A stretch of DNA of 64,000 nucleotides, taken from positions 310,001 through 374,000 of the forward strand of contig NZ_FOBV01000004.1 in NCBI RefSeq assembly GCF_900109935.1. The letters run 5' to 3'. Below the pieces are notes generated by a model. The model saw only the letters and a list, made by a program, of their open reading frames with translations, searched no databases and was not told the DNA's origin. The position numbers and the translations under genes were made by a program. Position 1 is the stretch's first letter; each line of letters starts with the position of its first letter. Positions 26,352 through 29,125 of this stretch are shown one piece after another. The DNA is from Chryseobacterium taichungense. GTDB taxonomy: Bacteria > Bacteroidota > Bacteroidia > Flavobacteriales > Weeksellaceae.

Positions 26352-27371
26352 ATGAATTTTGAAAACGCGAAACAGTTTTTTGAAAATACTACAGGAAAGA
26401 AATCTTCTGAGTTTATCACGTTAGCTCAAAGCGGTTCTGCGAGGGTGAATTTTCTGGCAGTCACCGAAGACAACAAATACATCGTTACCTGTAACGAAAA
26501 TATAAGGGAAAATGAAGTTTTTTTATACTATTCAAAAATTTTCTCAGGTCTCCATCTAAATACTCCTTCCATTTGTGAAATTTCAAAGGACAGAAAAATG
26601 TACATCCAGGAATTTCTGGGAGAACAAACGCTTTCCGACATTATCGAAAAAGAAGGACTTTCGGAGAATGTAAAAAATTTGGTCAGACAGACTCTAGAAA
26701 AACTTTACCAGCTACAGTCTCTCACCCAGAATAAAATTGATTATGAAAAAGCTTTTGAATACGAACGGTATGATGAGCTTCCGGTAATTCACGATCTGTA
26801 TTATTTTAAAAATTTCATCGCTGATGTTCTTGAGCTGGAATATCACAAATCTTCTTTACTGAAAGAATTTAAAAAAATAGCTGCACTGATTGAAAATTTA
26901 CAACCTAAGGGTTTAATGATCCGTGATTTTCAGGCAAGAAACATTATGGTGAACGAATACAATAAAGTTTCATTCATTGATTACCAGTCTGCTATGGAAG
27001 GTCCTTTCATGTATGATGTAATCTCTTTTTTGTTTCAGGCTAAAGCTAATTTCCCTGAAGATTTTAAAAATGAAATGCTCGATTACTATATCAATCAGTT
27101 TGATGATAATGAGAAAAAGCTTCAACTAAGAGAATCGGTAAAACCGTTGCAGCTGATGAGATTTCTTCAGGTACTGGGCGCTTACGGTTTCAGAGGTTTG
27201 ATACAGAGAAAACAACATTTCATAATAAGTCTCGAAAAAGGAATCAAAAACATTACTGCATTTGCTGAAACATGGGACGATATGAGAGACTACCCGGAAC
27301 TGAAGAGAGTAATTGAACAATTAAGCCTGGATCGTACAAAATTTAAAATTGAGGAAATTTTGAACCATTAA
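26352..27371 (+). CDS. Aminoglycoside-phosphotransferase-fold sugar kinase (AmgK-like)
   Basis: 339 aa, cytoplasmic. The APH/choline-kinase fold shows a catalytic loop MIRDFQARNIMV at about 190-200 (the usual His before Arg-Asp is Ile here) and a metal-binding FIDYQSAMEGPFMYDVISFLFQA at about 208-230. The latter resembles AmgK, the anomeric kinase for N-acetylmuramate/N-acetylglucosamine in cell-wall recycling. A MurU-like nucleotidyltransferase lies two genes downstream, as expected for AmgK-MurU. Function is inferred from motif and context. The last two codons and the stop lie in the left arm of an inverted repeat (27363-27403). Confidence 0.82.
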   Translation: MNFENAKQFFENTTGKKSSEFITLAQSGSARVNFLAVTEDNKYIVTCNENIRENEVFLYYSKIFSGLHLNTPSICEISKDRKMYIQEFLGEQTLSDIIEKEGLSENVKNLVRQTLEKLYQLQSLTQNKIDYEKAFEYERYDELPVIHDLYYFKNFIADVLELEYHKSSLLKEFKKIAALIENLQPKGLMIRDFQARNIMVNEYNKVSFIDYQSAMEGPFMYDVISFLFQAKANFPEDFKNEMLDYYINQFDDNEKKLQLRESVKPLQLMRFLQVLGAYGFRGLIQRKQHFIISLEKGIKNITAFAETWDDMRDYPELKRVIEQLSLDRTKFKIEEILNH

Positions 27372-27403
27372 GATTTTGTTTTAAGAAGTTAAGTTTAATT
27401 AAG
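27363..27403. repeat. Left arm of inverted repeat flanking the GxxExxY gene
   Basis: It is made of AACCATTAAG (27363-27372), an 8-nt gap and a 23-bp block (27381-27403, beginning TTAAGAAGTTAAG). Both blocks recur as exact reverse complements at 27829-27866. The arm overlaps the kinase stop codon. Confidence 0.85.
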
Positions 27404-27407
27404 CTTT

Positions 27408-27812
27408 ATGACGAAAAAAGAAGTTACACAACTATCTTATGAGATAACAGGTTTTGCTATAAAAGTTCATAAAACTCTTGAGCCAGGCTTACTTGAAAGC
27501 ATCTATGAAGAATGTCTGAAAATTGAACTTATAAAAAATGGATATAATGTAAAGCAACAACTTTATACTACAATCAATTATGAAGGCATTGATATAGAAA
27601 CTAAATTAGTTGTTGATTTGCTTGTAAACGATATTGTTATTGTAGAATTAAAAGCCATTGAAGAAGTTCTTCCTATTCATGAAGCTCAATTATTGACATA
27701 CATGAAGGTATTGAAAAAACCGCAAGGATTATTGATCAACTTCTTTACTGATAATATTACAAAATCTTTAAAACCTTTTATTAATGAGTATTTTAAAGGA
27801 CTGCCAAACTGA
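27408..27812 (+). CDS. GxxExxY protein (PD-(D/E)XK nuclease-like)
   Basis: 134 aa. The family hallmark GLLESIYEECL is present near residue 25. The core VVDLLVNDIVIVELKAIE (D at about 75, ELK at about 84) has the spacing of a PD-(D/E)XK nuclease active site, and HEAQLLTYMKVL follows. The family is widespread in Bacteroidetes and cyanobacteria, with no established function. The gene is enclosed by long inverted repeats and interrupts an otherwise coherent sugar-recycling operon, so it looks like a mobile cassette. Its AT content is similar to or higher than that of its neighbours. Confidence 0.85.
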   Translation: MTKKEVTQLSYEITGFAIKVHKTLEPGLLESIYEECLKIELIKNGYNVKQQLYTTINYEGIDIETKLVVDLLVNDIVIVELKAIEEVLPIHEAQLLTYMKVLKKPQGLLINFFTDNITKSLKPFINEYFKGLPN

Positions 27813-27828
27813 ATTTGATTTATCAAAT

Positions 27829-27866
27829 CTTAATTAAACTTAACTTCTTAATAGACCTTAATGGTT
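27829..27866. repeat. Right arm of inverted repeat flanking the GxxExxY gene
   Basis: Exact reverse complement of the left-arm blocks: a 23-bp block at 27829-27851, a 5-nt gap and CTTAATGGTT (27857-27866). A small hairpin (ATTTGAT/ATCAAAT, 27812-27827) lies just inside it. I saw no target-site duplication outside the arms. Confidence 0.85.
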
Positions 27867-27891: not shown

Positions 27892-28311
27892 ATGCTACAC
27901 ATCGACATACACAGTTTTTCATACAAAAAAGGAGGAATTCCTAAAGACACAACAGGCAACGGCGGCGGCTTTACATTCGACTGCCGTGGAATTCTTAATC
28001 CCGGAAGAATTGAAGAATATAAGATCCAGACCGGAAATGATATCGGTGTTCAGGAATACCTGGAAACAAAAACCGATATGCCTAAATTTTTAGAACTAAT
28101 CAAAAGCCTGATCTCGATTAATATTGATAATTATCTGGAAAGGGGCTTTGAGAATCTTCAGATCAACTTCGGATGTACGGGAGGACAGCACCGATCTGTA
28201 TATTCTGCTATAAAAATAGCACATTTCATCGAAGAGAAATACGATAATAAAGTTGAAATTAGCCTTCATCACGATGAACAGCACCAACTTAATATAAGTA
28301 ATAAGCAATAG
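27892..28311 (+). CDS. Stand-alone RapZ C-terminal-domain protein
   Basis: 139 aa. It aligns by eye with the C-terminal half of RapZ (YvcJ family): IHSFSYKKGGIP, GGFTFDCRGILNPG, GNDIGVQEYL, and the hallmark FGCTGGQHRSVYSA. The N-terminal P-loop ATPase half of RapZ is absent. In E. coli the RapZ C-terminal domain senses glucosamine-6-phosphate and controls GlmS through RNA binding and decay. Here the domain lies between an AmgK-like kinase and a MurU-like nucleotidyltransferase, so an amino-sugar sensing or enzyme role is plausible but not shown. Confidence 0.82.
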   Translation: MLHIDIHSFSYKKGGIPKDTTGNGGGFTFDCRGILNPGRIEEYKIQTGNDIGVQEYLETKTDMPKFLELIKSLISINIDNYLERGFENLQINFGCTGGQHRSVYSAIKIAHFIEEKYDNKVEISLHHDEQHQLNISNKQ

Positions 28312-28403
28312 GTAATAAGTAATATTTTTAACTTCGTTAAATTATTATCTATTACCTATATTTTACATCATCATTGATTACACATTACCAATTACTTATT
28401 ACC
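28311..28403. repeat. 13-bp inverted repeat in AT-rich gap
   Basis: GGTAATAAGTAAT (28311-28323) and its reverse complement (28391-28403), with further TATTACC words between them. It begins at the end of the preceding CDS and stops 9 bp before the next ATG. It looks like a dispersed AT-rich intergenic repeat. Confidence 0.55.
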
Positions 28404-28411
28404 CATAAAAT

Positions 28412-29125
28412 ATGAAGGCTTTAATTTTTGCGGCGGGAAAGGGAACCCGGCTGAAACCATTTACCGATCATCATCCTAAAGCTTTGGCGAAGGTAAATGA
28501 TATTCCGCTTCTGGAAAGAAATATTAAATATTTAAAAAATTTCGGAATAAATGACTTTGTCATCAATATTCATCATTTTGGAAATCAAATAGTTGATTTT
28601 TTAAAGCGAAATGACAATTTTGGATGTAAAATAGAGATATCAGACGAATCCAATGAACTGTTGGAAACAGGTGGCGGCTTAATTTTTGCTAGAAAATTTC
28701 TCGATCATGGTGAAGATTTTCTGATCATGAACGCCGATATTCTTACAGATATGAACATCACCCATTTTGTAGAATACCACAAAAAGATAAAAGATTTTGC
28801 TACATTAGCTGTTTCGGACAGAGAAAGTTCGAGAAAACTGCTTTTCAATGATGAAATGATTTTAAGGGGCTGGCTTAATGTGCAAACCGGTGAACAGAGA
28901 CTCGCGGAGTTCAATAAAGGTTTCAAAGCTCTTGCTTTCAGCGGAATTCACTGCATTAATCCTTTTATCTTTGAAAAAATTAAAAGAACAGGCAAATTTT
29001 CAGTGATGGAAGAATACCTTGATCTGATGCAGACTGAGCAGATTCATGGTTTTGTGCATGAAAGCATCCTTATTGATGTCGGAAAACCGCAATCCATAAC
29101 AGAAGCCGAAAAATATTTTAAATAA
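28412..29125 (+). CDS. Sugar nucleotidyltransferase, MurU-like
   Basis: 237 aa, the length of MurU-type enzymes. It has the nucleotidyltransferase signature AAGKGTRLKPFTDHHPKALAKV at residues 7-28, EISDESNELLETGGG, a metal-binding MNADILTDM, and the ending GKPQSITEAEKYF. MurU transfers UMP to N-acetylmuramate-1-phosphate, letting recycled wall sugars re-enter as UDP-MurNAc. The AmgK-like kinase in the same cluster supports this over a generic mannose or glucose nucleotidyltransferase. Substrate remains an inference. Confidence 0.82.
   Translation: MKALIFAAGKGTRLKPFTDHHPKALAKVNDIPLLERNIKYLKNFGINDFVINIHHFGNQIVDFLKRNDNFGCKIEISDESNELLETGGGLIFARKFLDHGEDFLIMNADILTDMNITHFVEYHKKIKDFATLAVSDRESSRKLLFNDEMILRGWLNVQTGEQRLAEFNKGFKALAFSGIHCINPFIFEKIKRTGKFSVMEEYLDLMQTEQIHGFVHESILIDVGKPQSITEAEKYFK

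Follow-up and report, generated by a model that had tools for sequence, protein, structure and literature searches.

The window analysed in the present study, a stretch of 64,000 nucleotides from Chryseobacterium taichungense, carries a gene of the GxxExxY family enclosed by long inverted repeats (Table 1). Upstream of the gene is an APH-type sugar kinase; the genes downstream encode first a RapZ C-terminal domain protein and then an NTP transferase. An earlier note on this DNA had described a 134-aa PD-(D/E)XK-like GxxExxY gene bracketed by exact inverted arms (a 10-bp and a 23-bp block on each side) within a kinase / RapZ-C / nucleotidyltransferase cluster, and all of these features were found. 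It had also proposed that the left arm encodes the last two codons and stop of the kinase; the left tip AACCATTAAG indeed supplies the final two codons (N-H), the stop codon and one further base.

Table 1. Features of the kinase/RapZ-C locus (positions are those of the window)
Feature	Position	Strand	Remarks
APH-type sugar kinase, upstream flank	26352-27371	+	ORF and domain match
Left arm	27363-27403	+	AAC and word CATTAAG, then repeated TTAAG; runs into kinase C-terminus and stop
Left arm, tip	27363-27372		AACCATTAAG; 8 nt before the next block
Left arm, 23-bp block	27381-27403		TTAAGAAGTTAAGTTTAATTAAG
GxxExxY / PDDEXK_3 nuclease gene, 134 aa	27408-27812	+	Profile matches
Right arm, inverted copy of left arm	27829-27866	-	
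Right arm, 23-bp block	27829-27851		
Right arm, 10-bp tip	27857-27866		CTTAATGGTT
RapZ C-terminal domain protein, downstream flank	27892-28311	+	ORF and domain match
Further gene-less palindrome	28293-28407		TAATAAG/CAATAGG words
NTP transferase	28412-29125		Same direction as the kinase, GxxExxY and RapZ-C genes

The 23-mer match is beyond chance expectation: with up to 3 mismatches allowed, the window has only two occurrences of the 23-mer, and 100 shuffles had none. This arm type recurs in 26 orthologues of the genus. In the sister species the same site has the inner unit GTTAAGAATATTAAG at the left and GTTAAGTTTAATTAAG at the right, and the exact 23-bp match is thus specific to the lineage of the window. 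Since the arms of the sister species are unequal, the perfect match in the window reflects later homogenisation and not a fresh insertion. Left and right arms of one species resembled each other more than arms of different species did (p below 0.001 by permutation, with relatedness not removed), and we give little weight to this sign of co-evolution at the site. A search of four loci against Rfam returned zero matches, and the reading as an RNA element was dropped for this reason. The palindrome in the gap between RapZ-C and the NTP transferase has arms of 31 nt that are 81% complementary, and two different repeat families therefore lie within one operon, one in each gap.

The nuclease gene and the age of its insertion

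The protein encoded in the window belongs fully to the GxxExxY family, with matches to PF13366 (8.8e-36; 123 bits, cut-off 22) and TIGR04256 (2.4e-38; 131 bits, cut-off 35). The name-giving motif reads GLLESIY, and the PD-(D/E)XK motif is complete (E30, D70, E80-x-K82, Q94). In an alignment of 48 sequences, E80 and K82 were invariant and D70 nearly so, and the columns of the GxxExxY and (D)-ExK motifs were invariant or almost. The median dN/dS among the surviving copies was 0.044, with dS saturated, which indicates that the gene is under strong purifying selection.

The AlphaFold2 model of the protein reached a pLDDT of 96.4. Its top fold match in the PDB was Cas4 SSO0001 (E 4e-4, TM 0.5-0.58); lambda exonuclease was also among the nearest folds, as were, with weaker matches, the archaeal Hjc Holliday-junction resolvases, and the best viral match by TM-score was a halovirus PD-(D/E)XK nuclease. 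No solved structure of any sequence homologue was found. The modelled fold thus suggests a PD-(D/E)XK core shared with Cas4, lambda exonuclease and Hjc. Unlike Cas4, which has four Fe-S cluster cysteines, the protein has 134 aa and a single cysteine; Cas4 profiles matched it only weakly and in part, and its neighbours are the kinase, RapZ-C and NTP transferase genes instead of cas genes.

The gap between kinase and RapZ-C was inspected in all 118 genomes of the genus having a RapZ-C match. The full gene was present in 26 of them, a partial gene in 6 and a tip remnant only in 36, while 50 had no trace; remnants of either kind were thus seen in 42 genomes beyond the 26. Adjacency of kinase and RapZ-C is conserved throughout the genus, and in most of its genomes the two genes adjoin without the cassette, in agreement with the cassette structure suggested earlier. 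The right tip CTTAATGGTT before RapZ-C often outlasts the loss of the gene, as if kept (36 genomes, for example loci L016, L032 and L033). Genomes of Halpernia, Frigoriflavimonas and Kaistella carry the gene at the same kinase/RapZ-C site. The use of one site across genera of the Weeksellaceae, together with the remnants, indicates that the insertion is old, vertically inherited and often lost, and a recent transposition into the site was rejected on the same grounds. Hence, of the proposal that the cassette is a mobile element, the part that stood is a cassette with gene-less relatives, and mobility at this site at present did not; the insertion is ancient, vertical and mostly decaying (26/6/36/50).

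GxxExxY genes as a whole were found in 110 of the 118 genus genomes and in 101 of 198 genomes sampled across the phylum. They were absent from all 50,697 phage records searched, and were seen in 5 of 72,556 plasmid records, all typed as non-mobilizable, and at one locus in IMG/VR. The PADLOC defence search gave nothing beyond weak Cas4-type matches. This distribution fits a gene resident in the chromosome; the reading as a defence or phage gene was therefore rejected. The cargo had been suggested to be either its own mobility factor or a defence factor; the former is the best-supported reading, and the latter was given up in view of the phage, plasmid and PADLOC results.

Palindromes with and without the gene

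When the 4.48-Mb genome was searched with the 23-mer (up to 3 mismatches), seven places were found, namely the two arms and five others. At three of these (L003, L006 and L007) a second, inverted arm was found by pattern, forming palindromes of 126-128 bp without a gene; the remaining two (L004 and L005) also have inverted halves, which are more degraded. In the same genome PF13366 is represented by four intact genes and a degraded fifth. Inverted repeats bracket all four intact genes, with arms that differ between genes: the others are of a 47-nt CGCAAAGGCGTTTCACTCAGC type (L008), a AACCACAAAAGTCACAAAAG type (L009) and a TTTAAACATTAAGAATTTAAG type (L010). The check that had been advised, for the same arms around other GxxExxY genes, thus returned arms of the same kind and, in addition, gene-less copies. 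The degraded fifth copy (L012, 1501-1850) has a stop codon and a frame change. In the loci examined, the only gene found between TTAAG arms was GxxExxY.

Gene-less elements with arms of the window type, 98-148 bp long, are dispersed in the genomes of the genus. The type A pattern (AACCATTAAG..TTAAG) gave 0-58 matches per genome, compared with 0-2 per strand for a reversed control pattern, and the type C pattern (AACCACAAAAGTCACAAAAG) gave 0-87. With a clade-A gene the median type A count was 19 versus 8 without it (p=0.0009; own arms subtracted), and the type C count was the same with or without this gene (p=0.74). After phylogeny was included by regression on the kinase/RapZ/NTase tree, the clade-A gene was associated with a 1.45-fold type A count (p=0.021) and a 1.04-fold type C count (p=0.80). 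The effect of the cognate gene on copy number is therefore modest. Carriers of clade C had higher type C counts (p=0.004) and also higher type A counts (p=0.004), so the clade-C comparison is not specific. In genomes without any GxxExxY gene the type C count was 0.31-fold (p=1e-5, with phylogeny), and type A showed no significant drop with phylogeny (p=0.22). Elements are nevertheless present in some genomes that have no GxxExxY gene at all (G040 and G097).

Turnover of the elements was followed in the genomes of two species, G092 and G096, which are 96% identical at the kinase/RapZ-C locus. Of 11 alignable element sites, 5 were shared and 6 were occupied in G092 only, with conserved sequence on either side, a pattern in which gain and loss are not distinguished. 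Neither a target-site duplication nor a clean insertion product was visible at the flanks of gene-less copies or in comparison with empty sites. As single-strand DNA, three of the gene-less copies form better hairpins than shuffled sequences do (z -5.7, -3.7 and -2.5). The GTAG tetranucleotide is absent from the window arms and is not conserved in the gene-less copies.

Arm words and protein clades across the Bacteroidota

For the survey of arms, 123 loci from the genus were joined by another 110 from the phylum (233 in total), and inverted repeats were scored on oriented loci with other genes of the same loci as controls. A flank score of at least 34 was reached by 62 of the 110 phylum GxxExxY loci, compared with 1 of 326 control genes. 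The arms consist of one short word repeated at intervals of 8-12 bp; such a periodic word was found in 152/233 loci and in 0/233 when the letters were reversed. In a further test that used no preset word list, the same 5-mer was chained in both flanks of 101/233 loci and of 0/326 control genes, the latter being the valid control for this test, for which reversed letters are not. The words include CATTAAG, CACAAAG, CACAGAG, CACAGAT, CGCAAAG and CACAAAT, and to judge from their letters they look like variants of a single heptamer behind an AAC tip.

The most informative feature is the correspondence between protein clade and word. On the tree of 63 representative proteins the word changed 7 times, versus 28.4 times with shuffled labels, and none of 200 shuffles was as low. 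All proteins with the TTAAG word (92/92) fall on one side of one branch. This clade includes Flavobacteriaceae, Weeksellaceae, Pedobacter, Cyclobacteriaceae, Chitinophagaceae and Dysgonomonadaceae, and it occupies about 28 distinct genomic sites, so that arms and gene occur together beyond what a shared position would give.

Arms on one side only occur in some clades and in Sphingomonas. Clade K (L044-L073 and relatives), the largest GxxExxY clade of the genus with 41 rows, had no paired arms in the loci examined; in the six loci that were read out, the gene lies just upstream of a similar gene resembling a glycoside hydrolase, and a palindrome of the CGGCAAAGCCGCTGATGAAG.. type is on the upstream side only. 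Outside the genus, single loci suggest the same arrangement. In Gemmatirosa (Gemmatimonadota; L404, 1-2759) a complete AACC(GCAGAGGAC)n palindrome lies on each side of a GxxExxY coding region whose reading frame appears broken. A Bernardetia locus has the CACAGAG word, and in Sphingomonas parapaucimobilis (L405, 1-2772) the gene lies between fabD and fabG, with a single arm of the CGCGAAG word directly 5' of its ATG.

A model for the elements and its alternatives

We propose, with a probability of roughly 0.6, that the window cassette is the gene-bearing 'master' of a family of short palindromic elements, in which GxxExxY cuts at the word of its own arms and so gives rise to, or preserves, copies at other places. 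The nuclease thus probably maintains or spreads this family of tiny repeats. Each element consists of a pair of inverted arms, and an arm has an AAC tip and two to four copies of a heptamer-like word, here CATTAAG/TTAAG, with a spacing near one turn of the helix. Between the arms is encoded the GxxExxY protein, a small PD-(D/E)XK nuclease. Its target is most likely the word of its own arms, in duplex form or in the hairpin or cruciform that the arms can adopt, and it would cut at the arms so recognised. The break may then be repaired or strand-transferred, by which short gene-less copies would be made or maintained elsewhere in the chromosome. The data establish the architecture of the elements, the match of clade and word, the dispersed copies without a gene, their higher number beside a cognate gene, their turnover between related species and the long vertical descent, under strong constraint, of a gene with a complete active site; we infer both the binding and cutting of the arms and the spread of the elements through cutting. 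Against the proposal stand the lack of a visible target-site duplication or clean insertion product, the elements kept in some genomes without a GxxExxY gene, the modest size of the copy-number effect, the unspecific clade-C comparison and the clade K loci examined, where paired arms were not found. In addition, the usual reaction of PD-(D/E)XK-fold nucleases is hydrolysis of DNA and not strand joining, and the proposed copying would call for a recombination or repair partner from the host.

This proposal has to be weighed above all against the view that the repeats came first and were moved by an IS or a RAYT-type HUH transposase, GxxExxY being a passenger or a factor that restrains or repairs the repeats, for example by resolution of cruciforms. 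We consider this second view unlikely. It agrees with the presence of four to six Y1 (HUH) transposase genes in the genome, with the Holliday-junction resolvase among the nearest folds of the GxxExxY model and with the persistence of elements in some genomes without the gene. However, the palindromes next to the Y1 genes are different ones that lack both TTAAG and CACAAAAG words, and mobilisation by the resident Y1/RAYT transposases was rejected because of these different repeats. Moreover, the word tracks the GxxExxY clade over about 28 sites, cognate copies rise and do not fall when the gene is present, and TTAAG arms enclosed no other gene in the loci examined.

The arms could also be read as an operator or mRNA hairpin of the GxxExxY gene, with the dispersed copies as coincidental relatives and the protein in unrelated housekeeping or repair. 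Strong purifying selection, vertical inheritance, near-absence from phages and plasmids and the one-sided arms of some clades and Sphingomonas would all suit such a role, but it predicts no genome-wide copy number tied to the gene, and it is quite improbable given that the arms are symmetric at both ends, that the same arms build gene-less palindromes and that these are present or absent between close species. We regard it as very improbable that the cassette is a common MITE or IS-like element that took up a nuclease gene in the past, has become inactive and now decays wherever it occurs. The 42 genomes with footprints or a partial gene at the site and the lack of a visible target-site duplication point in this direction, but a dN/dS of about 0.04 with an intact active site, the matching of clade and word throughout the phylum and the speed with which gene-less copies turn over between closely related species argue against it.

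The gene-bearing master with its own arm word, which we prefer, resembles the REPIN/RAYT systems, in which REP-associated tyrosine transposases occur with REP doublets (Bertels & Rainey 2011, PMC3116915). RAYTs are single-copy and vertically inherited, and genomes carrying them hold more REPINs (PMC8049555; PMC3116915); they are HUH enzymes, and each of their REPs has a tetranucleotide of the GTAG type at its base (PMC8266576). In both cases a few-copy, vertically inherited chromosomal gene goes with matching short palindromic, non-autonomous repeats, groups of genes pair with groups of repeats, genomes with the gene hold more repeats (here the 1.45-fold, p=0.021) and the dispersed inverted doublets are able to form hairpins. 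Unlike REPIN/RAYT, the partner here is a PD-(D/E)XK nuclease and not a Y1/HUH tyrosine transposase, the arms lack the GTAG tetranucleotide and are strings of a repeated word instead of single REP stems, and the copy number is lower (0-58 type A pattern matches per genome). As in MITEs and IS, short inverted-repeat elements have a gene-bearing relative, but no target-site duplication was seen, the gene copy seldom moves and, in the loci examined, the gene-bearing form had no DDE or HUH transposase.

In a broader and still tentative form, to which we give somewhat less than an even chance, GxxExxY nucleases may be widespread selfish or domesticated systems, in which a stand-alone PD-(D/E)XK nuclease recognises the clade-specific heptamer arrays that terminate palindromic elements and causes these elements to be copied. 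This would be a nuclease-based counterpart of REPIN/RAYT in Bacteroidota with a readable protein-to-word specificity code, and the single loci in Gemmatimonadota and Pseudomonadota suggest a reach wider than this phylum. The clade-to-word rule offers a concrete and cheap hypothesis for a common family without assigned function, namely that each protein recognises and cuts its own word. If this is true, many intergenic CACAGAG, CACAAAG and TTAAG palindromes would belong to one family of nuclease-linked mobile repeats, and the REPIN lifestyle, in which a tame enzyme is accompanied by a few repeats resident in the genome, would have arisen with an unrelated enzyme chemistry. The open-access literature searched yielded no link of the GxxExxY family to flanking repeats and no assigned function; the family is mentioned in passing (PMC8934634).

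Other proteins of these genomes are also accompanied by repeats. The Y1 (HUH) genes of the same genome (L408-L411) are flanked by the palindromes CCGAAGGG, GGCTTTAGCC and ATTCCGT, which are possibly classical RAYT/REPIN-like repeats in Chryseobacterium. Four-helix-bundle genes of PF05635, considered as a second user of the GxxExxY arms, were rejected as such because their words differ. Of 59 genomes of the genus 58 have such genes, at 1-18 copies each, and they may represent another protein family, unrelated to GxxExxY, that is organised in the same way: the genes (L414-L443) often lie between inverted words of their own, TTAGA, TTAGG and TTGGC, at a spacing of 7-8 bp.
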